A stretch of DNA of 49,209 nt from Bacteroidota bacterium (GTDB lineage: Bacteria > Bacteroidota > Ignavibacteria > SZUA-365): the NCBI GenBank assembly GCA_029907355.1, contig JARYLZ010000014.1, forward strand, positions 1-49,209. The letters run 5' to 3'. The notes beneath the pieces are model-generated. The model was not told the DNA's origin. It worked only from the letters and a program-made list of their open reading frames with translations, and did not search any database. The position numbers were made by a program, and so were the translations under genes. Position 1 is the stretch's first letter, and each line of letters starts with the position of its first letter. Positions 11,408 through 36,522 of the stretch are shown in pieces.

Positions 11408-11448
11408 GATCAGTTATTCCGCGTTCCCCGAGAGGGGATGTTTCCCGA

Positions 11449-13041
11449 TCACTTCACCGGTTCCGAGCGGACGAACACCTCGACGCGCCTGTTGAGCTGT
11501 CGCCCTTCTTCGGTATCGTTCGGGGCGACCGGCCGTGTCTCGCCATATGCATTCATGACGATGACGGACCTGGGAACGCCCTTGGAGGAAAGATACTTGC
11601 TGACCGCTTCCCCGCGCCTGCGGGAGAGAGCGATGTTATACTCTTCCGTGCCGTAATCGTCGGTATGCGCATCGAGCTGCACCTCGAAGTCCACATTGCC
11701 GGCGATAAGTTTCTTCAGGACATCTTCGAAAAGGCGATCGAGTTGCCGTGCATATTCCGGTCGCACATCCGCCTTGTCGAACTCGAAGTAGACCGTCGGC
11801 ACTTCGGCAGGCTTTTTCCCCTCGACGCGGGGTGTATCCGTTTTCACCGGTTGAAGGACAACGGATACCCGGTATTCTCCAGGATCCATCTGGGGTACTT
11901 TCACCGCTTGAGCGGTTTCCAGATAATTCGGGGCCGAGACCGATACCCGATATCGCCGGTTCGGGTTCGTCGCGATGCGTACCCTGCCGTCACCGCCGCT
12001 TCGGAGTGTGTCCGGTACTTCGCCCTCCGGCGCGATGACGAGGCGCGCGCTCGAAACCGTGCGTTTGTTCACCGTGTCCCTCACCGTAATGAGGAGATAC
12101 CACGTGTGCCTCGCCGGATTTTTGAACATGTGCTTGGTGACGGCGTACAAATCGAGCCCCCCGTAACCGCCGTTGCGATTGGATGCGAGGAGAACTGTAT
12201 CCTCCGAACCCGTCACCCGGAAAAAGAGATCGTCACCTGCGGAATTGAACGGGCGCCCGATATTGACGGGCGGTTTCCACCCTCTTTTCGCGTCCCGTAC
12301 GCTGACGAAAATGTCGAAACCGCCGAGACCCGAATGCCCATTGCTCGCGAAGAACAACGAATCGCCGCTGATGTGCATGAAGGGGGATTTTTCGTCCCCC
12401 GATGTGTTGATGGTCGGACCGAGATTTTTCGCGGGACCCCACGCCCCGCTCCGCAATCGGCGGGACACCCAAATATCCGTACCGCCGTGTCCCCCCGGTC
12501 GGTCACTCGCGAAATAGAGTTCGTTCCCGTCCGGCGAGAGGGACACATGAGAGTCCCAGTACTTCGTGTTGACCCCATCGCCGAGATTCTTCAGTTTTTG
12601 CCAATCAGCGGGCGCCTCGACCGCCGCGGTATAGATATCGGCGTCCCCCTTCCCGTCTTCCCTCCAGCATCGCGTGAAGAAAACCGTTCCACCATCCGGC
12701 GTAAAATGAACGGCGCCTTCATCGTTCGTGGAGTTGATCGTCCCGCCGAAGTTAAGCGCGGGAGTATAGGCTCCCGCTTCGATGTCGCTGAACCAGATAT
12801 CGTCTCCCTGGATGTACCCTTCGACGGTCGGGCGGTTCGACGTGAAATACAACCGATTCCCGATCGGAGCGGGCGCATAATCGTCGTATGGGGAGTTGAC
12901 TTGGGGACCGAGATTGTTCACAGCGCATTCCTCGCACGACAACATCTCCCGCTTGAGCGAAGAAGCGCAACCCGAAACGATCCCTGCCGCGAGAATGGCG
13001 AAAAAGAGAACTGCGCCGAGGGTTACTCTGTTGCTGTTCAT
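11449..13041 (-). CDS. PD40 propeller / regulatory-like domain / OmpA lipoprotein (PorE-like architecture)
   Basis: A 530-residue lipoprotein (IVSGC, lipid Cys25). About residues 45-310 hold PD40/WD40-like propeller blades, with repeated LYFTSNRP, ELYFASDRPGG, SLFFASNG-GLGGFDIFVS and LLASNRNGGYGG units. About 318-405 is a carboxypeptidase-regulatory-like beta fold. About 415-527 is an OmpA-like peptidoglycan-binding domain (VYFEFDKADVRPE, DAHTD, ALSRRRGEAV, RRVEVFV). This is the domain order of PorE, a T9SS-associated lipoprotein, minus its TPR part, so tethering an outer-membrane machine to the cell wall is plausible. A CEEC motif sits at residues 36-39, and its neighbour barrel also has CEEC. 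Seven bases separate it from that barrel. Confidence 0.92.
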   Translation of the reverse strand: MNSNRVTLGAVLFFAILAAGIVSGCASSLKREMLSCEECAVNNLGPQVNSPYDDYAPAPIGNRLYFTSNRPTVEGYIQGDDIWFSDIEAGAYTPALNFGGTINSTNDEGAVHFTPDGGTVFFTRCWREDGKGDADIYTAAVEAPADWQKLKNLGDGVNTKYWDSHVSLSPDGNELYFASDRPGGHGGTDIWVSRRLRSGAWGPAKNLGPTINTSGDEKSPFMHISGDSLFFASNGHSGLGGFDIFVSVRDAKRGWKPPVNIGRPFNSAGDDLFFRVTGSEDTVLLASNRNGGYGGLDLYAVTKHMFKNPARHTWYLLITVRDTVNKRTVSSARLVIAPEGEVPDTLRSGGDGRVRIATNPNRRYRVSVSAPNYLETAQAVKVPQMDPGEYRVSVVLQPVKTDTPRVEGKKPAEVPTVYFEFDKADVRPEYARQLDRLFEDVLKKLIAGNVDFEVQLDAHTDDYGTEEYNIALSRRRGEAVSKYLSSKGVPRSVIVMNAYGETRPVAPNDTEEGRQLNRRVEVFVRSEPVK

Positions 13042-13048
13042 GGCAGAC

Positions 13049-13846
13049 TCACAGGATCCATTTCAAAACGAGTGCTGCGGAAAAGGATTCCGATTTCCAA
13101 TCCTTGTCGGAGGAAGAGATCGTGGTCAACGGGTACGCGTACATCGCCTGAGGTGCGAGAATGACGGAACGCCCCACTTTCACGTTGAAACCGATCCCCG
13201 CTCGAATGTCGAATCGCAGAGCGGTCTCATCCGGGACGGCGGTCCAGACTTCGCGCCCAATCACCTTCTCGTTCGTGTTCGTTTCGTAGTACACGAACGA
13301 TTCGTCGAGCAGCCGCTCGACCACCCGGTACCGAGAACGGAGAGGGAAGCCGACGGCCGGCCCGGCGAAAAGGTACAGGTTTCGGAACATGAAGAGTTCA
13401 ACCGATGGATTCACGGTGAGGTACGGAAGCTCGACATCCATGGTCCGCTCGACATCGATCGTCGCAAAGGTACCGTCGGATACCTGCCTCCTCTGACCGG
13501 TCAGCGTCTCCGTGTAGCTTGCGCGATAGTCGTCATAAAGCACTCTGAGAGCGACGCCGAGGGAAGGTGGAAGAATCCGCTCCACCTGCAATCCGGCGAG
13601 GATTCCGGTACCGGAACCGTCATGGAAGGAACATTCTTCGCACTCCGGCAAGAAATCCCCCCTGTGGCGGTTCATGTCCGCCCCGACGATGACGCCGAGC
13701 ATCCACGGCCTCGGTTCCGGTGACAAGACATCGGGGGGCGGTGCGAGGGAAAAGGCGTATTGGGCGCGGAGCGTCAGGGAGAACGCAAAGATACCGAACA
13801 GAACGAGAGAAGCGCGGCGCCCCAAAGGAATGGCGGGCTTGTGCAT
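13049..13846 (-). CDS. small outer-membrane beta-barrel protein
   Basis: 265 residues with a signal peptide ending near LTLRAQ (residue 29), followed by alternating hydrophobic strands typical of an 8-10-stranded barrel, ending in ALVLKWIL. A CEEC pair (Cys69/Cys72) is followed by a SFHDGSGTG turn. The gene at 29327-30094 has the same layout: paired Cys then F-D/H-x-G, and near the C terminus P-x-x-x-Y-x-x-P-L-T followed by D/E-W-K. The two are clear paralogues. It sits 14 bases after the CoA-transferase and 7 before the PD40/OmpA lipoprotein, so a barrel-lipoprotein partnership is likely (compare PorP/PorE gene pairs), but it is not an obvious PorP. Confidence 0.85.
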   Translation of the reverse strand: MHKPAIPLGRRASLVLFGIFAFSLTLRAQYAFSLAPPPDVLSPEPRPWMLGVIVGADMNRHRGDFLPECEECSFHDGSGTGILAGLQVERILPPSLGVALRVLYDDYRASYTETLTGQRRQVSDGTFATIDVERTMDVELPYLTVNPSVELFMFRNLYLFAGPAVGFPLRSRYRVVERLLDESFVYYETNTNEKVIGREVWTAVPDETALRFDIRAGIGFNVKVGRSVILAPQAMYAYPLTTISSSDKDWKSESFSAALVLKWIL

Positions 13847-20909: not shown

Positions 20910-21677
20910 TCAGAATCCGTACGCGCTGAAACCGCCGTCTACCGCTATCACCTGCCCTGTGATATACGAGGAGACGTCCATACAGAGAAAAGCGACGAGA
21001 GCGGCGACTTCCCGCGGCTCACCGACTCGACCGAGGGGCGTGCGGGATAGGACGCGTTGGAGATACTCCTCGTTTTCGAGGAGCTTGCGGACAAGTTCCG
21101 TCCCGATGTACCACGGGGCGACGGCATTCACGCGGATCCCGTCCGGCGCCCATTCGACGGCGAGGTACCGTGTGAGATGGTGGAGAGCAGCCTTCGACAC
21201 CGCATACGGCGCCCCCGTGCGGACCGTAGTCAAGCCGGCCGTGGAGCCGATGTTGACGATCGAGGCCGCCGGGGAACGTTTCAAGCGCTCATAGCAGAGG
21301 CGGCAGAGCGAGAATGCGCTCGTGAGGTTCGTGTGCCAGAGGAACTCGTACTCTTCGTCGGTGTACTCCACGGTACGTTTCCGGATATTCGTGCCGACGT
21401 CGTTGACGAGAATATCGAGCGCCTGTTCGGGGGGGATATCCTGCATGACGTGCGTTCGACCCTCGGGGCTCGAGACATCCGCAGCCGTGCCGGAGCAGGA
21501 AAATCCTTTCGACACCCACGTGTCCAGGGTGGTGCAGATTTCATCTGGGTCCCGCGCCACGATGTGCACGTGTGCGCCCAATTCGAGAAAGAGTTCTGCC
21601 ACTGCGCGTCCGATCCCACGTGTCCCACCTGTAACGAGAGCTGTCTTCCCTTCGAGGTCCCAATGGGAAACCGTCAT
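20910..21677 (-). CDS. short-chain dehydrogenase/reductase, tropinone-reductase-like
   Basis: 255-residue classical SDR. Seen: the Rossmann glycine motif TGGTRGIG (16-23); NDVGTN in place of the usual NNAG, as in tropinone-reductase-like enzymes; the catalytic triad Ser145 (NIGSTAG), Tyr158 and Lys162 (YAVSK); and the C-terminal Y-I-T-G-Q-x-I-x-V-D-G-G. Arg42 in IVARD after strand 2 suggests NADP(H). Substrate unknown. It starts 100 bases after the caspase gene on the same strand and could be read through from that operon, or be independent; no terminator stem is visible between them. Confidence 0.93.
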
Positions 21678-21777
21678 CGTCCCCTTTCCTGTCTTTGTTC
21701 GTACACTGAGGCATCCTTCCGGGGAAACTCTGCCCGATTAGGGAAAATACATCTTGGTGGCGGATGTTCCTTCTCCC

Positions 21778-23307
21778 TCAATGGACGCGGGCAAGGGGGA
21801 AATCCACGCTTTCGCAACCGAAACAACGGGGCGTTTGGCGTCCTTCCGTCACGGCATTCACGTGTGCCGAGACGTATTCCGCCAACTCCCCGAGACGTAC
21901 GAAACCATCGGATGGCGCCGTCTCCGCGAAACCCTTGAGACCTTCCGCAAGGAAAAACGTGAAGACACCGTGGCCGCGGTCCTCGAACTCGAGCGCTTCC
22001 TGGGAGGCATGGGAAGCGGAGAGAATCGCGTAGCCGTTTTCCGCTTTCGCAATTTCGCGGAGCAATTCATTCGCATCCGAGACGGCGCGGGCACCGTCGT
22101 CGGCGGTCGCCCCTGCATGGCAGGCATCGATCACCCAGAGTACTTTTTTCATGCGGCCCTGTTTCCGGATCATGTCGTTGATCTGGCTTGCGGGCACCGC
22201 CGTGGCGCTCAAGCGCGAGGGTTCCGCATCCGAGGAGAGGAAGTAAAATGAACCCGCATCCAGCATGCCGTGACCCGCGAAGTACACGAAAAGCACGTCG
22301 TCTTCTTGGCTGGCTTTCAACAAGTAATCCAAAGCGGAGAGAATGGCTGCGCGCGTCGCCGCGGTGTCGGTGAGCAAACGGATACGCTGGGCGGGAAGAG
22401 CTCCGCACTGCGGGTTCCGCAACAAGGAGTCGACGAGCCGGGCATCCGACACGGCGAATCGCAGGGTCGGGACCGAAATGTCCCGGTACGTATCTACACC
22501 GATGACAAGAGACCATATACGCACCGGCATGCGTTCGCCCGTTTCGAGGAAGTACTCGATTTCCCTCACCTTTCGTTCCGCCCTCCGGAGAGCGGATTTC
22601 CCCGCTTCGAAATCCCGCTCGTCTTTGAGGACCATGCGGAGAAATTTCTGGGCTTCGAGGTAGGCGAGCCGTGCCCTTTCCCAATCCTCCGCACGCTCGA
22701 GTGATCGTGCCGTATCGATAATCCTAAGGGCTTCGCTGTAGGCGGCGAACGCCCGGGGGTTGTTCGGGATCCCCCGACGGATATCCTCCCGTCCTCCTTT
22801 CGGGATCTCGATCAACTTCCCATCCTCGAGGGCTGCCGCGAATTTCTGGGTCAGTTCTCGGATGACGGAGAATACACGGTCCGCTCGGTCGGTCACTTCC
22901 TCCGCTCGAAGGACACGCCCCGTCTCGACTTCCACCATTCGGGCATCCACACGGAGCACGTCTCCGAGTTGGAAGTAACTCCCGAAGAGGAGGACTTGCA
23001 CGCCGAGCAGTTTCCCTAAGCGGCTGCGCGTAGAAGGGTCGGCCATCTCGCTCTGTTGGAGGCGCAGCTCGCGGCTCAGATCGTCGAGACGCTCCCGCTC
23101 GACGAGATCGAGCATAGGCAAACGGGAGAACGCCGTCGTGAAAATGCTCTGGGCAGCGGGACCGAAATATGCGAGATCACTCGTGGGAGGAGCCGCCCCG
23201 CGGAACTCGAGCACGGCGAGGCGGACTTTCTGGGCTCCGGTCTTACCTGCCCAGACGAGGAACATAAAGAGGAACGCGTGGGTAACAATCTTCACTCGCC
23301 CGTTCAT
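21778..23307 (-). CDS. secreted caspase-family (peptidase C14) protein with N-terminal CsgG/LpoB-like domain
   Basis: 509 residues from the ATG at 23307, fixed by the ATGA overlap with the upstream gene and a GGAGG ahead of it. A signal peptide (about 1-26, ending TGAQ) sends it to the periplasm or beyond. About 28-165 resembles CsgG/LpoB/FlgO-type folds (VRLAVLEFRG, VERERLDDL, LGVQVLLFGSY). A helical linker (185-255) leads to the caspase domain (about 262-500): WSLVIGVDTY, catalytic His346 in YFAGHG, and catalytic Cys396 in IDACHAG. The C-terminal tail has a Cys-x-x-Cys. Metacaspase-type enzymes usually cut after Arg/Lys (family knowledge). Last gene of the seven-gene envelope operon. Substrate unknown; it may process an operon partner. 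Confidence 0.92.
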   Translation of the reverse strand: MNGRVKIVTHAFLFMFLVWAGKTGAQKVRLAVLEFRGAAPPTSDLAYFGPAAQSIFTTAFSRLPMLDLVERERLDDLSRELRLQQSEMADPSTRSRLGKLLGVQVLLFGSYFQLGDVLRVDARMVEVETGRVLRAEEVTDRADRVFSVIRELTQKFAAALEDGKLIEIPKGGREDIRRGIPNNPRAFAAYSEALRIIDTARSLERAEDWERARLAYLEAQKFLRMVLKDERDFEAGKSALRRAERKVREIEYFLETGERMPVRIWSLVIGVDTYRDISVPTLRFAVSDARLVDSLLRNPQCGALPAQRIRLLTDTAATRAAILSALDYLLKASQEDDVLFVYFAGHGMLDAGSFYFLSSDAEPSRLSATAVPASQINDMIRKQGRMKKVLWVIDACHAGATADDGARAVSDANELLREIAKAENGYAILSASHASQEALEFEDRGHGVFTFFLAEGLKGFAETAPSDGFVRLGELAEYVSAHVNAVTEGRQTPRCFGCESVDFPLARVH

Positions 23308-24488
23308 TTTCGTCCACCCTCCATGACAATTGCGGTGTAGAGTCGAAAAACCCATCCGTTCACGCTTGCACGGCTCGACCCGATTTCGGCGGTGCCGCGT
23401 GTCATGCCAAGCTGAGCCTTTACTTCCAGAGCATCACGAGGCCGCCACCCGATACCTGCCCACGGGTCCACGATGAATGCGGAAAACCCCTTGGCGATGA
23501 TACCCGAGAAAGGGCGGTATTCGCTTGCCGAGAACCATGCCGCATGAATGGATAGATCCAAACGCCAGGACGAAGAACGCGAAAGGGGGATTTCCGCGCG
23601 GTAGTCGAGTTCCACCTCGGGGCCATGCCGTATTTCGGCGTCCTCAACGGTAAGGACATCGGGAGAAATCCGCACGCGAGCCGATGCGTATGCATCCTGG
23701 AGGACCCCGTTCTCCGCCCTGTGCGTCCATCGCCCTGTACAGGTGAGACGCACGCCCGGTTTGCGGAAGACGAAGAACGACCCAATGGGGACACCCAGCA
23801 CATCGACGCTTTGGAGGCGGTCGCTCCCATAGAAGGTCGACGCGATATCGCATGCGAGGGACGTGCGCCTGTCCGGGCGATATTCGCCCCCGACAGCCGC
23901 CGTCGCCTCATCCCCGGGATCGTACAAGCCGAGCGTGTCGACGGGCTGAAAACGGCCGCGGGACAAGTATACCGCACCCGCGTGGATGATGAAGAGCGTC
24001 GAGATTTCCTTTGCCCACGCCCCGCCGACCTGGATGTTGAAACCTTCCCCGAGAGATTGTACGGGAAAGCCGAAAGCCCGAAGGGTCGTGACGGAAGTCA
24101 AGACTTGCTTCCCCCGTGAAGCGGCTTTTTTCCCCGTTGCGAGATTGGCATCCGCCAGGATCAGGAACGGGGTATCGGGGAAATACCACGAGAGCCCGAC
24201 ATGGGTATCGCTGGGGGAAACGATCGTCCCCAGCGTGTCGCTGCTTGCCAGGTACGGCGTGTTCGCGACACGCACCATGAGCGAAGAACTGAGGGGAACC
24301 ACCGACGCGAGAGGGAAAGCCAGCTGAGTATACCTGTCCCCACCGAGCTTGATTTCCCGCCATACGCTAGCGCCGTGAATGGCCCATCTGTCTTCGAGCA
24401 GGAGACGCGCAGGGGGGATCAACGTCTGCTGGGAAAGGCACACGCCGGGGGCGAGGAAAAGAGACACGAGGAATGCGCGCACCGTCAT
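23304..24488 (-). CDS. outer-membrane beta-barrel-like protein (larger, unrelated to the small barrels)
   Basis: 394 residues starting at the ATG at 24488 (ATGA overlap with the previous gene). Signal peptide to about residue 19 (VCLSQ), then many short alternating strands with Gly/aromatic turns across the whole length (e.g. VGLSWYFPDTPF, FNIQVGGAWAKE, GVRLTCTGRW, WRLDLSIHAAWF). That pattern fits a 14-16-stranded outer-membrane barrel. No family name recognised; FadL/porin-like is possible. It does not carry the paired-Cys motif of the two small barrels. The stop overlaps the caspase start, implying coupled production. Confidence 0.75.
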   Translation of the reverse strand: MTVRAFLVSLFLAPGVCLSQQTLIPPARLLLEDRWAIHGASVWREIKLGGDRYTQLAFPLASVVPLSSSLMVRVANTPYLASSDTLGTIVSPSDTHVGLSWYFPDTPFLILADANLATGKKAASRGKQVLTSVTTLRAFGFPVQSLGEGFNIQVGGAWAKEISTLFIIHAGAVYLSRGRFQPVDTLGLYDPGDEATAAVGGEYRPDRRTSLACDIASTFYGSDRLQSVDVLGVPIGSFFVFRKPGVRLTCTGRWTHRAENGVLQDAYASARVRISPDVLTVEDAEIRHGPEVELDYRAEIPLSRSSSWRLDLSIHAAWFSASEYRPFSGIIAKGFSAFIVDPWAGIGWRPRDALEVKAQLGMTRGTAEIGSSRASVNGWVFRLYTAIVMEGGRK

Positions 24489-26212
24489 CGCTGCACAATG
24501 AAAAAGGAGACGGTCGATTTCCCTTCGGCCGTTCTGGCACGAAGAGCGTAGCACCCCGCGGGGAGAGCCGCCGTGCCGACGACGAGCGGGTGCACGCCCT
24601 CACCGTACCGTCGACCGGAGAGCGATGGAACGACGCGGCCGAGCCGATCGATAACGTCGACGCATACCGTCGAACCGACCCCGACATGGAGAGAGGACCG
24701 GACCGCGTCACGAGCAGGGACGGGGTAGATAGGTTCCAGGTGGAAGCCCCCGGCTGGAACGAAGGCACACATGGATGCACCGACAAAGTTGGTTGTACCG
24801 GCCAGTAACCGGAAATGCGGCATACCGCCCCTCCCGCGGATCACAGCAGGCACGGACGTTACGGTAGCTGTGGAACCTGTTCCATCGGCCAGCGCGATCG
24901 TCCAGCCTTCCGGTGGTGTCCCCTCCAGATCTGCAGAGAACTCCCAGTCTTCGTCGCGGAGGGAGCGGGTGACGACGACATCCCACGAAGCCCCGCTGCA
25001 CGTATCGTGCTCATACGACTCGATCAACGGAGTGTGAAGCGAAACGCTGCGGGGGAGTAAGCCGAGTGCCGCCGCGTCGGCAGGCAGGGGGGGAATCGGC
25101 ACGGCGCTGGGCCCCGATGCAGAGGAACGGACTCCTGCACGGCACTCGCTCGACCATCCGTTCGTTTTCAACCGAAACCGCACGCCCCACCCTGCGGTTT
25201 CTCCACGCCCGGCGTGGATTTTCTCGAACAAAATGACGGGGAGCATGCGAACGGCGGTCGGGTCTGGGTCGGACAGGAAAACGAAATACCCTTCTTCCTT
25301 TCGGATCACGCCGGAAGCGTCCGGCAATGTGAAGCGGCCGTCACGATAAGGATATGGGCCGGCGAATTTTCCCGTCAATTGCATACTCTGTACCGACCGG
25401 AGCCAATCCACATCGAGTGGGTACGGCGATGCGATGAGGTTCCACCCCGGTCGAACGTCCACGTAGAAGTCGTCGATCGACTGGAAGGTCGCAGCGGGTA
25501 GACGCAATTCTCTTTGCATACGCGAAATCATGAAGTACGCCTTCCCCCTTTCGAATGCTACGAACCACGCGCTCGGGTTCTTCCTGTTCCCCGCCGGCCC
25601 CGAGTACTCGACATAGCGGCCCTCCTCGGCGATATAGGAAAAGCACCGCCATTCGGTCACGGAATACGGTCCAAATTCTCTCGCGATCGATGAATCCATC
25701 ACGGTCACCGGTACATCCCTATCCAAGCCGAACAAGAGAAATCTCCCGGCCGGGGCTTCTTCAATGCGGGGCGGCACGACGAGAGGGATACCCGTTCCCT
25801 CGAGATCGACGAACACGTAGGTGCTGTCTTGCACGATGCCTCGAATGTACGTGCGTCGAACGATGACGGCGTCGCCGGTGATGCGACCCGTCGCTCGCGG
25901 GGAAAAGAGGAATCGGAACACGGCCGGCGAGGATGTCGCATCGACAGGGCCCTGCGGTCCGGCGAAACGGAAAACACCCCCGCCGTCATTTCCGAAGGAC
26001 ACGAATTCGGCTTCGTACCGGAACGGTGTCAACGAATCCCCTTTCACGGGAACGTCCCGTTCCACCGTCTCCGTCAGTCGCACAGAACCGAAATCGAGAA
26101 GCACCTGAGCGGAGCCGGTGCATCGACTTGCGCACTGGATGCACAGGAGGGTTGCGATGGAAAGCTCCCATCTCAAAGCGAGGAAACGCACCGGGTTCGG
26201 AAATCGCTTCAT
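24485..26212 (-). CDS. secreted protein with Hydin-like N-terminal domain and T9SS-type sorting domain
   Basis: 575 residues from the ATG at 26212 (ATGA overlap). The first open codons further upstream lie inside the TPR gene and are not used. After a signal peptide (about 1-36, to GSAQ) comes a domain of the ASPM/SPD-2/Hydin (choice-of-anchor D) type: LLDFGSVRLTETVER and FRFLFSPRATG. A GWNLIASPYP segment near residue 265 is a common element of secreted Bacteroidota proteins. The C terminus (IYPVPARDAV, V-x-D-R-L-G-R, LPAGCYALRA, FFIVQR) is a type-A sorting domain with PVPA in place of PNP. Probably surface-exposed. No catalytic motif seen. Confidence 0.85.
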   Translation of the reverse strand: MKRFPNPVRFLALRWELSIATLLCIQCASRCTGSAQVLLDFGSVRLTETVERDVPVKGDSLTPFRYEAEFVSFGNDGGGVFRFAGPQGPVDATSSPAVFRFLFSPRATGRITGDAVIVRRTYIRGIVQDSTYVFVDLEGTGIPLVVPPRIEEAPAGRFLLFGLDRDVPVTVMDSSIAREFGPYSVTEWRCFSYIAEEGRYVEYSGPAGNRKNPSAWFVAFERGKAYFMISRMQRELRLPAATFQSIDDFYVDVRPGWNLIASPYPLDVDWLRSVQSMQLTGKFAGPYPYRDGRFTLPDASGVIRKEEGYFVFLSDPDPTAVRMLPVILFEKIHAGRGETAGWGVRFRLKTNGWSSECRAGVRSSASGPSAVPIPPLPADAAALGLLPRSVSLHTPLIESYEHDTCSGASWDVVVTRSLRDEDWEFSADLEGTPPEGWTIALADGTGSTATVTSVPAVIRGRGGMPHFRLLAGTTNFVGASMCAFVPAGGFHLEPIYPVPARDAVRSSLHVGVGSTVCVDVIDRLGRVVPSLSGRRYGEGVHPLVVGTAALPAGCYALRARTAEGKSTVSFFIVQR

Positions 26213-27531
26213 CGGTTCGGTTCGGGCGGTAATGGGAGAATTTGCGGGCCGTCCCTGCGTGCCGCGCCTGTGTTCAGAAAACCCGCTTCGAGCAGTCGCG
26301 CCCCGGTTTCCAGCAGCGTCTCCCGTGCAGCCGTCGAAATTCTCGGTGCGGGGAAAAACACAAGGAGGAGATTCCGCAAGGAAGGGATGGGTTCGGCGAG
26401 CGTTTCCGCCGCCTCGTACCGTCTTCGCGCCAGTTCGAAAGCAGGGTCCTCCCTGAGGGCGGCGACGAAATATCCGGCTGCTTCCTCGTATCTCCCCGCA
26501 TCCCATGCGCGGAGTCCTCTGCAATACGCGAAGAAGGCAAGCGTGTTTTCCGTCTGGGGGACCTGGATCTCACGCCGTTCAGTCGCCGTCAGGGGAATGT
26601 TCAACTCTTTCAGTAACGAGAGAGCGATTTTCTTCTCGAGGGAGAACAACCGTTCTTCCTTCCCTCGTTCGCGGACAGCTCCCATGATCCGTCCGTCTCG
26701 GACCGATACGGCGCGTGCAGAGAGAACGATCTCGCTCCGCTGGCGTTCCACTCCGGGGTCGATGAGGATTTCCGCTGCGAGGAGGCGGCCCTTTTCCGGC
26801 AGGGTGGCCGGGTCCCATGCCGACGTGTCTCGCTCCAGTTCGATGAGGACCTCCGCGAGACGGGAGCGCTCGACGACAGCGACAGCGGAGGCTTTCGAGA
26901 GATCCGTCGTCAAGAAATCGGTCAAACCGACTGCGGCTAGGGCGAGAGAGGTGTCTTTCCGTCCAGCGGCAACAGGCAGGACGGCAAGGATGCGTTTCCC
27001 TGCCACGGCCTCTATCTTCGTCCCCCCGAAATCCGTTCGAACGACCGAATCTTTTTTCCTGAGGGCTGCGACGACCCGAGCGATTTCACCCCGGTGCGCG
27101 GCGAGCTTTTCGTTGCGCGATGCCCTTTCGTAGGCATCCGCGGCTTCAGCGTACGACCCGACCTGTTGGGCGGCTACCGCCCGTGCGAACGTCTGGGCAC
27201 CGGGGATCGCCGATCGTGTATCGGCGAGGCGTAGGTAAGGGAGCGCATCAGCCCTGCCCCCGAGGAGATATGCGACTCCAATGCCACCGAACGTTTCCGC
27301 TGTGTCCGCCCCAGTTTCGAGTGCGCGCTCGAACGAAACGGCGGCGGATGCGTAATCCCCTTCCGCCAAGAATTCCTTCCCCCGCTCGACGAAGCTTCCT
27401 GCCGAGCACCCTCCCATCAGGCATGCGCACGAGACGAGGACACAGAGGACGGCGGTTCCCTGTGTGATCCACGCATGCGGACAGTCAGCGCCTGAAATCC
27501 TTGTTAAGGTCGAAATCCGTGTCTCTTCCAC
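26209..27531 (-). CDS. TPR / CsgG-like lipoprotein
   Basis: A predicted lipoprotein of about 440 residues; lipobox LMGGC. No ATG fits. The start is the GTG at 27531 or the one at 27552, both inside the end of the previous gene, so the N terminus is uncertain and the n-region unusually long. Seen: TPR-like helices (ERGKEFLAEGDYASAAVSFERAL; SYAEAADAYERA) in the first third, a CsgG/TolB-N-like alpha-beta domain in the middle (KRILAVLPV, GLTDFLTTDLSK, VVERSRLAEVL), and another TPR-like pair near the C terminus (GRYEEAAGYFVAALRED). This is the second CsgG-like domain of the operon, the first being on the caspase. Overlaps its downstream neighbour by ATGA. Confidence 0.82.
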   Translation of the reverse strand: MEETRISTLTRISGADCPHAWITQGTAVLCVLVSCACLMGGCSAGSFVERGKEFLAEGDYASAAVSFERALETGADTAETFGGIGVAYLLGGRADALPYLRLADTRSAIPGAQTFARAVAAQQVGSYAEAADAYERASRNEKLAAHRGEIARVVAALRKKDSVVRTDFGGTKIEAVAGKRILAVLPVAAGRKDTSLALAAVGLTDFLTTDLSKASAVAVVERSRLAEVLIELERDTSAWDPATLPEKGRLLAAEILIDPGVERQRSEIVLSARAVSVRDGRIMGAVRERGKEERLFSLEKKIALSLLKELNIPLTATERREIQVPQTENTLAFFAYCRGLRAWDAGRYEEAAGYFVAALREDPAFELARRRYEAAETLAEPIPSLRNLLLVFFPAPRISTAARETLLETGARLLEAGFLNTGAARRDGPQILPLPPEPNR

Positions 27532-29311
27532 GCGTTTCGTATGCTCCGACACGAGTCATCGTGATTCGGATCCGCCGCTGGGAAGCATAGTCCGTGTTGT
27601 CGTTACTGACATCGCCCCCGACGATGCTGTACCGGATTCGACCGGCTTCCTTGAGATCCAGGTACTCGCGATGGCCTTCCGATGCCGCTTCGCGGAAAAG
27701 ACGGTCGAGGTACAGGTATGAATGCCAAGCGCGAAGCCCGGAGAGCTTGAGGTTGTCGAGTACATCGCCTTTCGATACCGTATGTGTGTTCCCCCTCATG
27801 TCGGCGAACGTGACGGTTTCGTCTTCGAGGTACCTGCCGATGATCGGCTGCGGATCCGCATAGCCCACCACTTTGATCTCCAGGATTTCCGACGGGAGAC
27901 CCTGCGCTGCGAACCGGGGGAAGATCTCCTCGACACCGGCGGTGTACACGGTGCGAAAAATGCTCTCCACCGTCTCGGCGTATGCGATGTACTGCTGGTG
28001 TCTTCTCGACTGCCGAGGGAACCTCTCGATGTACGTGGCGGACGATAGCTCACCCTGCAGGCGCGTGAAGAGGTCCTCGAGGGAAGCGCGCGTATTCGGC
28101 CGGTAATAGCCGGTTACGAAAAAGGGGATATTGTAGCGGCCGAGGTCGAATTCCGCAACCGTGATGGGTCCGAATAGGAGGACGACGCTCTGTTCCGTGT
28201 TCGCGCGCGTCTCGGTGACGTCGGCCGCACGCTTGGGGTAATCCCGGATGACCGCTTCCACCCGGTATGCCCTGTCGGCGGGGAGAATCTCCGTGTACTC
28301 GGCAGCCTGGGTGTTGGTCACGAAGGATGTCAGAACGTTGCCCGTCTCCGCGTCGATGATGGTGACCAGGCTCGGCAAAGGTTTGCGGCTGACCGAGTCC
28401 AGCACGCTGACGGTCAGGCGGAACATACCTTTCCCGAACACGTTCGGCGTCCCGACGTACACGTCGAGGCCGCCGTACCCTCCTCGCCGCGAGGATGCGA
28501 GATAGAAATCCTGGTCCTTCGCGGGAGCATGGAAAAACATATCGTCTTTGTCCGAATTGACGACCGGCCCGAGATTGACCGGATGGGTCCATGTCCCGTT
28601 CTCGTACATCGTCATCCAGATATCGTACCCCCCGTACCCCGCCAGGCCGTTCGACGCGAAATACAACGTCCCGCCGTCGGGGGTCAAGTACGGTGAGCAT
28701 TCGTTCCCCTTGGTGTTGATCCACCGGGGAAGGGGTTTCGGTTCGGAACAATTCGCCCAGTCGTCGCAGGTCACGGCCCAGAGGTCCGTTCCGCCCGCCC
28801 CGCCTGGCCTGTCGGATGCGAAAATGATCGTCCTCCCGTCGCCCGTGACGGCGGGTTGGGATTCCCAGTGCTTCGTGTTGACACGCGGGCCGAGGTTCCT
28901 GATACCCGTCAGGGTGCCTCCCGAGAGGTAGGCAGACCAGATGTCCGTATCGCCGAACCCGCCGGGACGTCCGTCGGATGCGAAGAGCACCCTCCCTTCG
29001 GGCGTGACGACCATGGCACCGTCGTTACCCTCCGTATTGAAATCCGTGCCTGCATTCTCCGCAACGGTCCACGCGTTCCCGACCCGCTGGGTGCGGAAAA
29101 TATCCGCTTCACCCCTGCTGCCGGTTTTTCGATAGCTCGTGAAATACAGGGTTGACCGGTCAGCGGTGACGGCAGGGGCGTAATCGTCGCTCGGCGAGTT
29201 GACTTCCGCTTCGAAGGGTCGGACGACGATGGGGTAGCCGCTGAAATTCTGTGCCGCGGCGGTAAAGGACAAGAGATAAAAAACGATGCTGAAAACGATA
29301 CCGCGTTTCAT
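27485..29311 (-). CDS. PD40 propeller / regulatory-like domain / divergent OmpA-like protein
   Basis: 608 residues; signal peptide ends TAAAQ (residue 21) without a lipobox, unlike its paralogue at 11449-13041. PD40 blades run from about 35 to 290 (LYFTSYRKTG, VLFASDGRPGG, IIFASDRPGGAGG, LYFASNGLAGYGGYDIW, YLASSRRGGYGGLD). A regulatory-like beta domain follows (about 300-390). The C-terminal third is a divergent OmpA domain: VVGYADPQ, then about 35 extra residues, NLKLSGLRA and a final SQRRIRITM. The Asp and Arg positions that hold diaminopimelate in OmpA appear kept. Fifteen bases downstream of the small barrel; no gap to the TPR gene. Confidence 0.9.
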   Translation of the reverse strand: MKRGIVFSIVFYLLSFTAAAQNFSGYPIVVRPFEAEVNSPSDDYAPAVTADRSTLYFTSYRKTGSRGEADIFRTQRVGNAWTVAENAGTDFNTEGNDGAMVVTPEGRVLFASDGRPGGFGDTDIWSAYLSGGTLTGIRNLGPRVNTKHWESQPAVTGDGRTIIFASDRPGGAGGTDLWAVTCDDWANCSEPKPLPRWINTKGNECSPYLTPDGGTLYFASNGLAGYGGYDIWMTMYENGTWTHPVNLGPVVNSDKDDMFFHAPAKDQDFYLASSRRGGYGGLDVYVGTPNVFGKGMFRLTVSVLDSVSRKPLPSLVTIIDAETGNVLTSFVTNTQAAEYTEILPADRAYRVEAVIRDYPKRAADVTETRANTEQSVVLLFGPITVAEFDLGRYNIPFFVTGYYRPNTRASLEDLFTRLQGELSSATYIERFPRQSRRHQQYIAYAETVESIFRTVYTAGVEEIFPRFAAQGLPSEILEIKVVGYADPQPIIGRYLEDETVTFADMRGNTHTVSKGDVLDNLKLSGLRAWHSYLYLDRLFREAASEGHREYLDLKEAGRIRYSIVGGDVSNDNTDYASQRRIRITMTRVGAYETRGRDTDFDLNKDFRR

Positions 29312-29326
29312 GACGAATCCTCCGTG

Positions 29327-30094
29327 TCAGAACGATATCAGGACGCCCAACGTGCCCTGGAGAACGGAGTATTTCCACTCCCCTTCTTTCGACGCGCGTG
29401 TCAAGGGGTGGCTGTAGAGAATTTCCGGGTTGAGGTAAACCCGGTGTGACAATCCGATGCGCGCTCCGATCCCACCGCGGAGGGCGGCACGGAAGGTGCT
29501 CGGGAGAGAGTACGAATCGTCGTACATCACCTGCGAGGTCGTGCCATCGAGATATGTCACGCCGGGCGGGCCGAGGATGGTTTCGCGTTTGAAAAAATGA
29601 TTCCCTAACAAAAAGCCGAAGGAAGGCCCGGCGGCGAGGTACACGCCGGCAAAGGGAAAGACGTAGGCTGCGAACAGGTCCACGGTCAGCACGTGCAAAT
29701 CGACCTCGAGCTTGTTCTCGAGATCCACCAGTTCGATCGTATTGCCGAGACCACGTATGGGGTACCTCTGCAGGAAGGCCGTGAATTCCCCGCGCGGATT
29801 CTCGTACAGGAGACGCGGGGAAAAATCGAAAACCCCGAGGACCGGGAAAAACGCTTTCACACCCAGCGCCGGACCGAGGCCTCTCCCCTCGTCGAAAGCG
29901 CAACAGAGGATGCCGTTTTCCGTCGTGGTGAAACGCCCTTTGTGGATTGCGTTGTCGACACCGCCGAACGGGCCGATGAAGCTCATGCGAGCGGCCCCGG
30001 GGTAGAGAATCCGATCTTCCGGGCCTTCACCTCGCAATGCAGGGGCGAGGACGATCACGAGGAGAGAAACGATGGAGAACGTACGTGCTGCCAT
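29327..30094 (-). CDS. small outer-membrane beta-barrel protein (paralogue of the 13.0-13.8 kb barrel)
   Basis: 255 residues from the ATG at 30094, chosen for GGAGG eight bases upstream and the signal peptide it exposes (to about residue 22). Strand-rich throughout. Cys64-Cys65 are followed by AFDEGRGLG, matching the CEEC-SFHDGSG of the other barrel. Near the end P-x-I-L-Y-S-H-P-L-T and G-E-W-K-Y match its C-terminal strands. Lies 14 bases after the double-VWA gene and 15 before the PD40/OmpA gene, the same barrel-then-PD40 order as the 11-13.8 kb cluster. Confidence 0.84.
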   Translation of the reverse strand: MAARTFSIVSLLVIVLAPALRGEGPEDRILYPGAARMSFIGPFGGVDNAIHKGRFTTTENGILCCAFDEGRGLGPALGVKAFFPVLGVFDFSPRLLYENPRGEFTAFLQRYPIRGLGNTIELVDLENKLEVDLHVLTVDLFAAYVFPFAGVYLAAGPSFGFLLGNHFFKRETILGPPGVTYLDGTTSQVMYDDSYSLPSTFRAALRGGIGARIGLSHRVYLNPEILYSHPLTRASKEGEWKYSVLQGTLGVLISF

Positions 30095-30108
30095 GACGGG
30101 TCCCTCCG

Positions 30109-33100
30109 TTAGCGGACGACCAGCATTTTCATCATGTCCACGGCTCCACCGCATTCCAGCAGGCAGTGATAGATGCCGGGGGGAACGTTCCGCGCCTCGA
30201 AGAGGATTTCGTGATCCCCTTTCACGGTCCACTCGTCCCGCAGGACGCACACCGTTCGCCCGAACGCGTCGACGACGGAAAGCCGAACGTGACAGCCCTC
30301 GGCGAGGTTGTACGCGATGCGCGTGTGCGACCCGAATGGATTCGGCGTATTTCCCTTCAACGTACCCGTGATGCGGCGCGACGGGTCGAGCAAGCGGCGG
30401 TCGATGTAGCAGAGGCTGTCGATCGTGAAACGCGCCGTGCCCGTGACACCTACGCGCGGGTTCCCGTCTGCGAATACGGCGGACATGAGGGCGACGTCCG
30501 TCGTGCGCGCATTCCCGAGGAGGACACGGAAATTCAGGCGCACCAGGACGCTGTCCGGGAACGGGTTTTCGAGCGGCGGCCCCGCGAGATCGAGCATCAG
30601 ATACCCCCGCGAAGCATCACAGGTCTCCGTTGCGTCCGTGACGGTGAGCGGCGCGCTGAGGGACGAACCCGTCAACACCGGTTGCTCACCGGGAGGTGTG
30701 GATTTCCTATCGTTGCCGAGAAGCGTCTTGTTGTACGAGACTACGACGCGGTACGAAGTCACCTCGTACTCGGCAGGGAGCTTGTCGAGAAGGCGGACCG
30801 GTATCACGGTGAGGTTGCCAGGTTTCCCGCGGTATTCCCCTGTCAGAGCAATGGTCACGCTGTCATACCCAATCCCTTGGAGCGGGAGGAGAATATCCGA
30901 TTGCGTGCAGCCGTTGTGAGAGACGGAAAGCGTATCGCGGATGATCCGTAGTCGTGTCGGGGTGAAACATACCTGGATCACTGCCGCTCCTCCCGGCGCG
31001 ATGAGCGGGAGTGTCCCGACGACCGTGAACATCGGGTTCCCGTTCGTGATGCCCGTGACCGTCAGAGGAGCATCACCGATGTTGCGCACCGTCAGGGGGA
31101 GACAGGTCGTCCGCCCGACCTTCGTCGAGTCGAACTCCAGTTGGGAAGGTTGGAGGGCGACGATGGGGGTCACACCGCGCCCGCGCACATGGAACGCCAC
31201 CGCCGTGTTCCGGCTGAGCAGAACCGCAATCTGGCGGTACACCGCTACGAGATCAGTCGTCGAGGTAGCGCTGAAGAACCGCCCACCGGTTTGTTCGGCG
31301 ATGGAAGTCAATGTGGCAGGGTTCGCCTCGCCGATGCCGATGGTGAAAATGGTCACGTTCGCAGCGAGGGCGGCCGCAACGACGTCCGACGGAGTGGCAG
31401 AACCGACATTGTTCTCTCCATCGGTCAAGACGATGAGAACGCGCTTGTTCGTCCTCGTCACGAGCTGCGAGACGGCATCGATGGACGAGTTGTAGAGGCG
31501 GGTGCTCCCCGAGGCGGAAAGCGCCTGGATCGCGTTCGAGAGGAGCACCTTGTCCGACGTGAAATTCTGCCGGACGGAGAAACCGTCGGAGAACGCGTAT
31601 ATCGCCGCCTCATCGCGGACATTCAGAGTGTCGATGAGGCCGGATACGAAATCGTTCCCCGCCTGCTTCGCTGCGACGATCCGCTGAACACCGTCCGACA
31701 TCGTCGTCGACATGCTCCCGCTGACGTCGAACAACATCCCGACGCTCAGCGACACGCGTGTGTCCGCGTACAAGACGACCGACGTGGTGTCGGTCCTCGG
31801 CGCGTCGGGCGGCGTATAGCACACCTGGAATGTTCGGGACTCACCGGGCTGAAGCTCGAACGGCACCGAGATCGATGCGGTGAACGGCGGCGGGATCCCG
31901 GGGAGAGACCGGACGGTGAGCGCCGTGTCGCCGATATTGGAAAAGGTGACTAGTCTGCATTTCGTCGTTCGGCAGAACGTCGTATCGAAATCGATCGTGT
32001 CGGGTACGATCCGCAGGATGGGACCGAGGGCGCTGTTCGTCGCCGGCAGCGCGACGCCGAGAAGACGGATACGGATGTCGGGGTCGGAACAGCTCGTGTT
32101 TTCGATGACCGCCTCGCCGCTTGCGAACCCCCGTGCACGCGGTTCGTAACAGAACATGACGGTATCGTTCCCCCCCGGTGGTATCGTTCGCGGTACGGTC
32201 GTCCTCACCGTGAACGGTGATGGGAGCGTGATCCGGTTGATGTCGAGCGGTGCGTTGCCGTTGTTCTCGACCCGGACAGGAAGGCAGGACGAAGCCCCGA
32301 GAGTGACAGCGCCGAAATCCAGTTGATCCGGCGTGAGCGAGATGCGCGGTTCGGCAGTGACGGCATCCATGCGGAAAGAGAAGAGAATGTTCGTGCTCAC
32401 GAGTGAGACGATGCGCTGGAATGCGAATATCAGCGATGATGGGTCATCCGCCGTCTGGAACACACCCCCTGTGCTGTCCGCCATTTGTCGGAGGACGTCG
32501 ACGGCGACGTGGCCGATGTCGATCGTGAAAATGCGCACGGGGCGTGGACCTTCTCTCGCGAGCGAAATCACGTCCTGGAGACGCGCGGCACTGCCGTTGT
32601 CCTGCCCGTCCGTCAGGAGGATGACGACAGGCGCGTAGGGACGGGTGCGCACGTCATTGATGCATCGGACCACCGCGTCGAAGAACAGCGTTCGCGGTCC
32701 CGGTGCGTCCGTCGGGAGTTTCGCGATCAGCGTGTCGCGGTTGTCCGTGAAATCCTGGAGGAGCACCGTCGTGTCAGCGAAGCGGTAGAGAGCGATCTCG
32801 TCCGGGAAAGCAGGGGAAGAGAGGATGTCCGTGATGAGGCTGTCAGCCGCTTCCCGCGCCGCGAGAATCCGCGTTGTCGTCCCGAAAGGGACAAGCATGC
32901 TCTGGCTGACGTCGATGCACATGGCGATGGACAGCGGGATGCGGGAATCCGCGCGGAAGAAAACCCTCTGGCTGTCGATGGAGGCGGTCGGCCGCGCCGT
33001 GTAGCAGAACGTGTACGCCCGGCTCTGGCCCGGCAACAACGTGCCGGTGGGAAGAGTCCCGCTGAACGGCGGCGCCGCAGTCCCCGCCGACCGGATCGTC

Positions 33101-33300
33101 AATATCGTGTCGCCGGTGTTCCTGAGAACGATCTGTTTGCATTTCACCGTGCCGCAATGGACGGTATCGAAATGCATGGGATCGTTCTGGATCTCGAGAA
33201 GCGGTCCGACAACCTTCGGTTGCGCATGGAGGAATGGCGGGAAGAGAAAGGCAATCCCCAAGGGAATTGAGAGAATGAGCGTCAAGAACCCTCGTCTCAT
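30109..33300 (-). CDS. 1063-residue surface protein: two Hydin-VWA-Hydin modules plus T9SS sorting domain
   Basis: Start ATG at 33300 with GGAGGAG directly ahead. Signal peptide about 1-27 (FLHAQ). Two tandem modules of about 400 residues each contain a Hydin-like beta domain with the motif C-x-T-x-K-C (HCGTVKC; FCRTTKC), a VWA domain with MIDAS DVSQS (about 130) or DVSGS (about 530) and LLTDGQD or VLTDGEN, and a second Hydin-like domain (L-x-P-x-Q-L-x-F). A further beta domain follows (about 840-960), then the sorting domain (NTPNPFG, GIYHCLLE, MLVVR). Likely exported by T9SS and displayed on the surface, with the VWA domains as adhesive or scaffold parts. First gene of the seven-gene operon. 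Confidence 0.92.
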   Translation of the reverse strand: MRRGFLTLILSIPLGIAFLFPPFLHAQPKVVGPLLEIQNDPMHFDTVHCGTVKCKQIVLRNTGDTILTIRSAGTAAPPFSGTLPTGTLLPGQSRAYTFCYTARPTASIDSQRVFFRADSRIPLSIAMCIDVSQSMLVPFGTTTRILAAREAADSLITDILSSPAFPDEIALYRFADTTVLLQDFTDNRDTLIAKLPTDAPGPRTLFFDAVVRCINDVRTRPYAPVVILLTDGQDNGSAARLQDVISLAREGPRPVRIFTIDIGHVAVDVLRQMADSTGGVFQTADDPSSLIFAFQRIVSLVSTNILFSFRMDAVTAEPRISLTPDQLDFGAVTLGASSCLPVRVENNGNAPLDINRITLPSPFTVRTTVPRTIPPGGNDTVMFCYEPRARGFASGEAVIENTSCSDPDIRIRLLGVALPATNSALGPILRIVPDTIDFDTTFCRTTKCRLVTFSNIGDTALTVRSLPGIPPPFTASISVPFELQPGESRTFQVCYTPPDAPRTDTTSVVLYADTRVSLSVGMLFDVSGSMSTTMSDGVQRIVAAKQAGNDFVSGLIDTLNVRDEAAIYAFSDGFSVRQNFTSDKVLLSNAIQALSASGSTRLYNSSIDAVSQLVTRTNKRVLIVLTDGENNVGSATPSDVVAAALAANVTIFTIGIGEANPATLTSIAEQTGGRFFSATSTTDLVAVYRQIAVLLSRNTAVAFHVRGRGVTPIVALQPSQLEFDSTKVGRTTCLPLTVRNIGDAPLTVTGITNGNPMFTVVGTLPLIAPGGAAVIQVCFTPTRLRIIRDTLSVSHNGCTQSDILLPLQGIGYDSVTIALTGEYRGKPGNLTVIPVRLLDKLPAEYEVTSYRVVVSYNKTLLGNDRKSTPPGEQPVLTGSSLSAPLTVTDATETCDASRGYLMLDLAGPPLENPFPDSVLVRLNFRVLLGNARTTDVALMSAVFADGNPRVGVTGTARFTIDSLCYIDRRLLDPSRRITGTLKGNTPNPFGSHTRIAYNLAEGCHVRLSVVDAFGRTVCVLRDEWTVKGDHEILFEARNVPPGIYHCLLECGGAVDMMKMLVVR

Positions 33301-35571: not shown

Positions 35572-36522
35572 TTACCCCCGGCGCGCTTTCTCCCCTTCGT
35601 TGAACCGGGACGAACACGAGACGGAGAGATGGACCAGGCGATCCGCATAGTACAATGCGAACCCGGCATACTCTTCCCCAGAGAACCGTCTCTCTTCCCC
35701 GAGAGACACCCCTGGGTGGGTTTCTTTCGGCAGTTCCTCGACGGCGTCCAGGGTTTCCGCCGTGACGAAAAACGCCTCGGCCGGTGTCAGAGCGCTTTTC
35801 GCACTGCGTGCTGCAAAGACATCGACCGCCGCTGCGCGGACGATTTTCGGAAAGTACGTACGATACACATCGCGCCGGTCGAAGATGTCGATCGCGACGA
35901 GTTTCCGGTCCATGAACACGGCCAGTCCGTTCGCTGAATCGTCGGGTGAGAACCGGGAAACGAACTCCGAGAACTTGCTTTCCCGGCTCGAGATGATATC
36001 CGTGATGGAACGCGTCGGCGATTCGCTTCTCAACGCGCTGTGATAACGCTCGACGAGGTCCCAGATTTCCCCCTGGTCGGAGTCAGGCAGACCGTACATT
36101 CTCAAGTGTTCGCTGACCTGTCTCGACTTCTCGCACCGGAGCGACATCGGTGCCACAGAAGGATAGAAGGTGAAGCCCGACGAAACGAAATGCCATCTCC
36201 CCCGCTCGACGCAGCTGACCGGAATGATGATCTTCGCCTTCGGTGCGAGAAAAACAGATGTGTTGACAACTCGGTTCTGTTTGGCCCCGACGAGAAGGTC
36301 ACCGTCCATCAGAAATACCGGTATTTCGGCGTGGTTGATGACGGTCAAACGGTTCACGTCTCCCGCGCGGTCGACCTCCAGCACCTCGAGCAGGCCTTCT
36401 TTCACCGCAGTTTCCCCGCAGATATATTGCAGGGTGTCTGTGGTTTCCGTGGCAAATTGCGAGATACCGAGTTTTTGTTGAGAATCGAAGACGAGATGCG
36501 TGATGTTCATTGCCGGCTCCAT
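35572..36522 (-). CDS. ARPP-1-domain protein (DUF6569-like)
   Basis: 316 residues with no signal peptide, so cytoplasmic. The central part contains the hallmark segment NHAEIPVFLMDGDLLVGAKQ-NRVVNTSV followed by IIPVSCVERGRW, which I recognise from the ARPP-1 family (found with ADP-ribosylglycohydrolase and rhodanese/phosphatase proteins). No activity is established for the family as far as I know. Two in-frame ATGs five codons apart compete for the start (36522, 36510). Divergent from the WYL regulator, with a perfect inverted repeat between them, so it is probably the regulator's target. Confidence 0.85.
   Translation of the reverse strand: MEPAMNITHLVFDSQQKLGISQFATETTDTLQYICGETAVKEGLLEVLEVDRAGDVNRLTVINHAEIPVFLMDGDLLVGAKQNRVVNTSVFLAPKAKIIIPVSCVERGRWHFVSSGFTFYPSVAPMSLRCEKSRQVSEHLRMYGLPDSDQGEIWDLVERYHSALRSESPTRSITDIISSRESKFSEFVSRFSPDDSANGLAVFMDRKLVAIDIFDRRDVYRTYFPKIVRAAAVDVFAARSAKSALTPAEAFFVTAETLDAVEELPKETHPGVSLGEERRFSGEEYAGFALYYADRLVHLSVSCSSRFNEGEKARRG

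Follow-up and report, generated by a model that had tools for sequence, protein, structure and literature searches.

The stretch of DNA analysed here (the window) comprises 49,209 nucleotides (nt) of contig JARYLZ010000014.1 from an assembly (GCA_029907355.1) of a Bacteroidota bacterium of the class Ignavibacteria. This study concerns a block of seven minus-strand genes, g1 to g7, at positions 33300-21778, the last of which encodes a caspase joined to a CsgG-like domain. Comparison with related genomes indicates that the block is composite and most simply read as an envelope trio (module A, g1-g3) behind which a separately conserved cassette (module B, g4-g7) was inserted. All seven open reading frames (ORFs) were confirmed, and are given below with the gene that follows them; G001 denotes a genome of the same family as the window genome.

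30109..33300, minus strand: g1, module A, secreted protein of 1063 amino acids (aa) (Pfam/NCBIfam; 51% identical orthologue in G001)
29327..30094, minus strand: g2, module A, small outer-membrane barrel, OMP_b-brl_2, 255 aa (Pfam; adjoins g3, and mostly g1 too, in relatives)
27485..29311, minus strand: g3, module A, PD40 propeller protein of PorE-like type, 608 aa (Pfam; orthologues 43-63% identical)
26209..~27552, minus strand: g4, module B, lipoprotein with tetratricopeptide repeats (TPRs) and a CsgG domain, CsgGa (Pfam; cysteine invariant among homologues)
24485..26212, minus strand: g5, module B, secreted protein with a putative C-terminal domain (CTD) of the type IX secretion system (T9SS) type, 575 aa (C-terminus matches CTDs of relatives)
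23304..24488, minus strand: g6, module B, outer-membrane barrel, family not represented in Pfam, 394 aa (alignments, predicted structure, Foldseek)
21778-23307, minus strand: g7 as a whole, CsgGb fused to a caspase (Pfam CsgG and Peptidase_C14)
22537..23307, minus strand: N-terminal part of g7, CsgG-like domain and helical region, CsgGb (own gene in most relatives)
21778..22536, minus strand: C-terminal part of g7, caspase domain with dyad His (AGHG) and Cys (DACHAG) (Pfam, alignment, Foldseek)
20910..21677, minus strand: short-chain dehydrogenase/reductase (SDR) oxidoreductase, far-side marker of the insertion (65% identical over 251 aa to the gene directly after g3 in G001)
21678..27484, no strand: segment missing at the syntenic G001 locus, taken as the module B insertion (comparison with G001)

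The first-pass annotation of this DNA had described seven minus-strand genes with gaps of 14-15 nt or overlaps, and these were confirmed: g1 and g2 are separated by 14 nt and g2 and g3 by 15 nt, and exact ATGA overlaps join g4 to g5 (26209), g5 to g6 (24485) and g6 to g7 (23304). The tight spacing and overlaps suggest that all seven genes are probably carried on one transcript, as had been proposed; a promoter and terminator scan gave results at chance level. At the boundary of the two modules, no ATG, GTG or TTG codon follows the g3 stop until three codons before the lipid cysteine of g4, and the start of g4 must be the GTG at 27552 or 27531, the only plausible standard starts, both lying within g3 and giving an overlap of 47-68 nt. 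This places 41-48 residues ahead of the lipid cysteine (27408-27558, minus strand), which is unusually long, the homologues having ordinary short signal peptides, and the start within g3 is perhaps a scar of the insertion. Signal peptides of the block products were assessed by eye.

The seven genes had been taken for a single surface machine made up of two exported proteins and two barrels, with two anchors and a protease for processing. In favour of this, the spacing and overlaps suggest one transcript and all seven products look exported; however, comparison of the seven proteins by tblastn with loci of 60 relatives split the block in two. The g1-g2-g3 trio occurs in the same order in G001, G010, G012, G013, G015, G017, G036, G048 and G054, and at least the g2-g3 pair was found in G027 and G045. 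Using locally built hidden Markov models, homologues of g2 or g3 were found in 0 of 54 module B loci, and CsgGa or the g6 barrel in 0 of 10 module A loci, while no other module A locus has a caspase. Since the halves never occur together in relatives, and G001 holds both of them apart, the single-machine proposal is largely refuted and its correctness very improbable.

The comparison with G001 also shows where the two modules meet. Its locus L109 matches the window in g1 (51% identity), g2 (51-55%), g3 (62%), the SDR gene (65%) and a BNR/Sortilin gene (48%), and the synteny runs on past the tRNA region. In G001 the g3 stop overlaps the SDR start as ATGA (4 bases) with no genes between them; in the window, g4-g7 are placed exactly between these two genes, and the SDR gene, which starts 100 nt downstream of g7 (21677-20910), is part of the old operon. 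The module B of G001 is quite different and lies on a contig apart from module A. Insertion of module B in the window lineage is the simplest reading of these sequence comparisons, and both the architecture and the insertion are well supported. Two considerations weigh on the other side. G001 may instead have lost module B, which is possible in principle, but less simple because a precise joining would be needed and no other genome has A and B together. The window also comes from a fragmented draft assembly of 173 contigs; an assembly error or chimaera is nevertheless unlikely because two breakpoints would have to restore synteny on both flanks.

A mobile element or flanking repeats at the ends of the insertion were considered and rejected, the longest shared word being 8 nt, inside the range of shuffled sequences, and the tRNAs lying elsewhere. 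Base composition was likewise discarded as a sign of transfer: GC content is flat over the block, and GC at third codon positions (0.69 in module B, 0.77 in module A and 0.69 in another native trio) is uninformative.

Proteins with CTDs of this kind are users of the T9SS, and the genome encodes the T9SS component SprA (1047 bits), so that the earlier description of an envelope gene set with T9SS cargo is borne out. In module A, g1 contains two VWA and four HYDIN/ASH Ig domains (Pfam) followed by a putative C-terminal T9SS-type sorting domain. Against the Pfam sorting-domain models, g1 is not listed and g5 reaches 13.9 bits with a cut-off of 27; both C-termini match the CTDs of relatives, that of g5 matching many such proteins. 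The g3 product had been called a PD40/OmpA protein, of which Pfam confirms PD40 and finds no OmpA domain; it falls under the cut-offs of the PorE/CHU_0125 models (NF052230, 138 bits against 600), and its profile matched nothing in the PDB.

Genes for the CTD cargo, the barrel and the PD40/PorE-like protein stand side by side in the window and in relatives. The same three roles (CTD cargo, barrel, PD40 propeller), with genes together, are found in the PorE-PorP-type B CTD complex and in SprF-SprB of Porphyromonas gingivalis and Flavobacterium johnsoniae (PMC9143113). However, the sole match of g2 is to OMP_b-brl_2, the PorP/SprF model giving none; g3 has neither a Pfam OmpA match nor a TPR part and is far under the PorE cut-off; and g1 bears VWA/HYDIN domains. 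Module A may thus be described as an anchoring trio, in which a T9SS cargo comes with a barrel of its own and a PorE-like propeller protein, and which is similar to the PorE-PorP complex without being a member of it. A second, paralogous trio lies at 9326-13846 on the minus strand (barrel, 13846-13049; PD40+CarboxypepD_reg+OmpA protein, 13041-11449; VWA protein, 11407-9326) and is nearer to classical PorE than module A; the genome has eight PD40 matches.

The distribution of module B was followed by profile searches with the g6 barrel in 396 genomes across the phylum and 391 in the class, which detected the barrel in 21 and 37 of them, respectively. Among the 54 loci fetched, 51 hold the barrel, and on contigs of sufficient length most have both CsgG genes; the window holds CsgGa, barrel and CsgGb together. 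About 37 loci adjoin a signalling enzyme (kinase, CHASE2-cyclase or caspase), and most of the others end at a contig edge. Module B is a widespread and independently conserved envelope cassette, which is apparently undescribed.

Three forms of the cassette were distinguished by this enzyme. The kinase form, found in about 19 loci of 11 families, has the order FHA, PPM phosphatase, Ser/Thr kinase (often with PEGA), CsgGb, CsgGa, usually a CTD protein, and barrel. The cyclase form (16 loci, a single family) comprises CsgGa, a CTD protein of ~1000-1600 aa, barrel, CsgGb, an 830-aa protein (p832) and a CHASE2 protein that carries a guanylate-cyclase-type domain. The window shares the gene order of the cyclase form, except that CsgGb is fused to the caspase at the point where p832 and CHASE2 would come. 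The p832 protein (L100 6594-9092 and homologues) has TPRs and a weak transglutaminase-like match.

The caspase form recurs in G667, a genome of another family (f21), as one run of genes encoding CHASE2, FecR-like, papain/DUF4384, CsgGa, barrel, FN3 lipoprotein and CsgGb-Ig-caspase proteins, in which the FecR-like label was given by inspection, Pfam having matched nothing. A further genome of that family, G698, carries a CsgGb-Ig-caspase fusion with CHASE2 and FecR-like genes as neighbours, while a separate contig bears CHASE2-CsgGa-barrel-FN3. The first-pass annotation had set the recurrence of the caspase with the same six families as a check on its proposal; g4- and g6-type genes do recur with it, in G667, so that the g4-g7 half of the proposal stands, while the PD40 trio is never adjacent. 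The caspase form is rare: apart from the window, G667 and G698, no further case was found in searches of 391 genomes of the class, 396 of the phylum and 61 of the family. This rarity, and the location of the G698 fusion on a different contig from CsgGa and the barrel, count against the reading of module B put forward below.

Concerning the individual module B proteins, g4 has TPR and CsgG matches in Pfam, and the matches listed in a PDB search are TPR proteins. The g5 protein occupies the slot held in most relatives by a CTD protein of 500-3100 aa. No Pfam family matched g6, which is a barrel by predicted structure (predicted local distance difference test score, pLDDT, 79.7). An attempt to assign it a specific identity with Foldseek failed, returning only generic outer-membrane barrels (template modelling scores mostly 0.3-0.57), with the amyloid exporter FapF and polysaccharide pores ranking among them.

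The joining of a caspase to a CsgG-like domain in g7 was confirmed by Pfam matches to CsgG and to Peptidase_C14, the latter with 56 bits (cut-off 21.4). Its structural model (mean pLDDT 78.5) begins with a small CsgG-like domain of alpha/beta type, passes into a helical region and ends in a caspase domain, for which the top solved-structure matches by Foldseek are MALT1 paracaspase and yeast metacaspase Yca1. The His-Cys dyad is intact in the aligned caspases of both the window and G667. In line with the earlier description of a secreted caspase, the g7 protein appears, from its apparent signal peptide, to lie outside the cytoplasm, and its caspase domain is predicted to be a paracaspase-like protease active in the periplasm.

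The CsgG matches of g4 and g7, and the presence of FapF and polysaccharide pores among the generic matches of g6, could be taken to mean that module B serves secretion or assembly in the manner of CsgG: its CsgG-like proteins would, with the barrel, export the CTD protein or some other product, and the caspase would trim it. In the CsgG curli exporter of Escherichia coli, the pore-forming part lies mostly beyond the stretch matched in g7. The g4 and g7 proteins share only part of the CsgG domain with this exporter, about the first half of the Pfam model being matched; in g7 the match ends near position 101 of 210, as it does at ~100 in relatives, ahead of most of the pore part. Beyond the match the g7 model has only short strands and no long strand pairs. 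Because of the early end of the match and the lack of strand pairs in the model, a CsgG-type pore in g7 is not supported by these predictions. Moreover, the T9SS already serves CTD proteins, and kinases and cyclases occupy the caspase slot in relatives. A secretion device is thus considered unlikely.

The g7 protein also matches the PADLOC caspase model, and the NCBIfam model for EACC1-type caspases below its cut-off. As bacterial caspases have been proposed to act in conflict systems (PMC8195603), the g7 caspase might be a suicide or defence effector triggered by the envelope parts. However, its apparent signal peptide places it outside the cytoplasm, PADLOC returned the generic caspase model only and no other defence gene, and the core is common to kinase and cyclase cassettes, so that a defence or cell-death role has little probability. 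The prokaryotic metacaspases and paracaspases (PMC3501461) and the EACC1/EACC2 systems (PMC8195603) share the caspase fold and the His-Cys dyad and are linked elsewhere to CHASE2 and kinases, whereas the window caspase appears to be exported and is joined to an outer-membrane cassette; CsgG is mentioned in neither paper.

In family f21 the Ig-caspase is mostly a gene of its own, often within a CHASE2-FecR-papain-caspase operon. The G667 caspase falls within this f21 group (100/100) and the window caspase outside it, and a single clade of the two is rejected (p-value of the approximately unbiased test, p-AU, 6e-6); the G698 caspase is of a distinct, very divergent kind with a DACRNN motif. Because the window and G667 caspases do not form one clade, fusion of a caspase to this CsgG-like domain arose on at least two occasions. 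This bears on the suggestion that CsgGb and the caspase were fused by accident and that the fusion is functionally unconnected with the other cassette parts, which its rarity and the long branch of the window genes would allow. The repeated fusion of the same domain to unrelated caspases, together with the retention of the catalytic dyad in the window and G667, makes such an accident improbable.

On the tree of concatenated CsgGa, barrel and CsgGb, all kinase cassettes form one clade that excludes the window (100/100), so that descent of the window cassette from the kinase cassette of its own family, by exchange of the enzyme, looks unlikely. G667 adjoins the cyclase cassettes (89/91), and between these and the kinase group the window branches off with a long branch. 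On this tree the window cassette looks like a separate old lineage, a placement for which the long branch calls for caution. No orthologue of the G001 cassette kinase was found in the window genome, the best match being 32% identical over the kinase domain.

Other caspase arrangements were observed in these genomes. Loci L275, L276, L277 and L283 of family f21 have a conserved order of CHASE2, FecR-like, papain/DUF4384, a protein of ~165 aa and Ig-caspase, often followed by a CTD protein. The window genome itself (L285, G000:C1) encodes a CTD protein followed by two further caspases, an arrangement also present in G001 (L286, G001:C45), and in G031 (L104, L106) CARDB-caspase proteins are encoded immediately upstream of CTD proteins (1296-2472 aa), so that here too a caspase is paired with T9SS-type cargo.

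Taken together, the content, order, fusion, recurrence, insertion and intact dyad read from the sequence make it fairly probable that the block combines the anchoring trio of module A with an inserted trans-envelope sensing cassette whose output is exchangeable and is, in this genome, periplasmic proteolysis. Module B would have been inserted behind g3, before the SDR gene, and would now probably lie on the module A transcript. The T9SS-exported g5 protein and the g6 barrel may form the surface part and sense the surface state, which the g4 TPR/CsgG lipoprotein and the periplasmic CsgGb would relay through the periplasm to an output enzyme. In membrane signalling proteins, PEGA and CHASE2 domains commonly lie outside the cytoplasm, and in relatives the relay would end at a Ser/Thr kinase, often with PEGA, accompanied by PPM phosphatase and FHA, or at a CHASE2 cyclase. 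Caspases are commonly activated by proximity; in the window, where CsgGb is fused to the output, clustering or a change of shape of CsgGb could set off proteolysis in the periplasm. A role of the protease in processing, as first guessed, is disfavoured, because relatives carry signalling enzymes in the caspase position, which favours a signal output. Against the proposed scheme it must be counted that the localisation, interaction and activity of the module B parts, together with signal flow and protease substrate, are inferred, and that module B of the window is very divergent (branch 2.8-3.6).

On a broader scale, Bacteroidota may possess an undescribed class of trans-envelope signalling cassettes in which the outer part is constant (a T9SS-exported protein, a barrel and two periplasmic proteins of CsgG-like type) and the output enzyme exchangeable: a caspase, a CHASE2 cyclase, or a Ser/Thr kinase accompanied by phosphatase and FHA. 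With a caspase as output, a surface event would be turned directly into periplasmic proteolysis. This generalisation is put forward tentatively, at somewhat less than even probability. Signalling sets of kinase, phosphatase and FHA protein are known, for example from the threonine phosphorylation pathway of the type VI secretion system and from PknB-type kinases. Relatives of module B likewise have Ser/Thr kinase, PPM and FHA genes in a row, but their cassettes are tied to CsgG/TPR lipoproteins, T9SS-type cargo and a barrel, and the version in the window has no kinase. The trans-envelope signalling set is thus of a known kind, and what appears to be new is this core with exchangeable outputs. 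We know of no described system with the module B set, and a caspase or metacaspase with CsgG, or CsgG with a kinase or FHA, in Bacteroidota was not found described in the open-access literature, which is weak evidence as subscription journals lie mostly outside it.

Little is known of how outer-membrane events in Bacteroidota are passed on to kinases, cyclases or proteases inside the envelope, and what bacterial caspases do is still largely an open question. The pairing of one outer-membrane core with three kinds of output enzyme makes the link between core and output directly testable, and the repeated independent fusion of unrelated caspases to one CsgG-like domain offers a concrete site for an extracytoplasmic bacterial caspase.

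Two other genes of the window, both on the minus strand, deserve mention. The gene at 46352-48769 encodes a single protein in which a weak OmpA-like domain comes after a phosphate-binding-protein-like one, and the gene at 35572-36522 encodes an ARPP-1 protein (255 bits) and lies near a same-strand gene for a thioredoxin-like AhpC/TSA protein.

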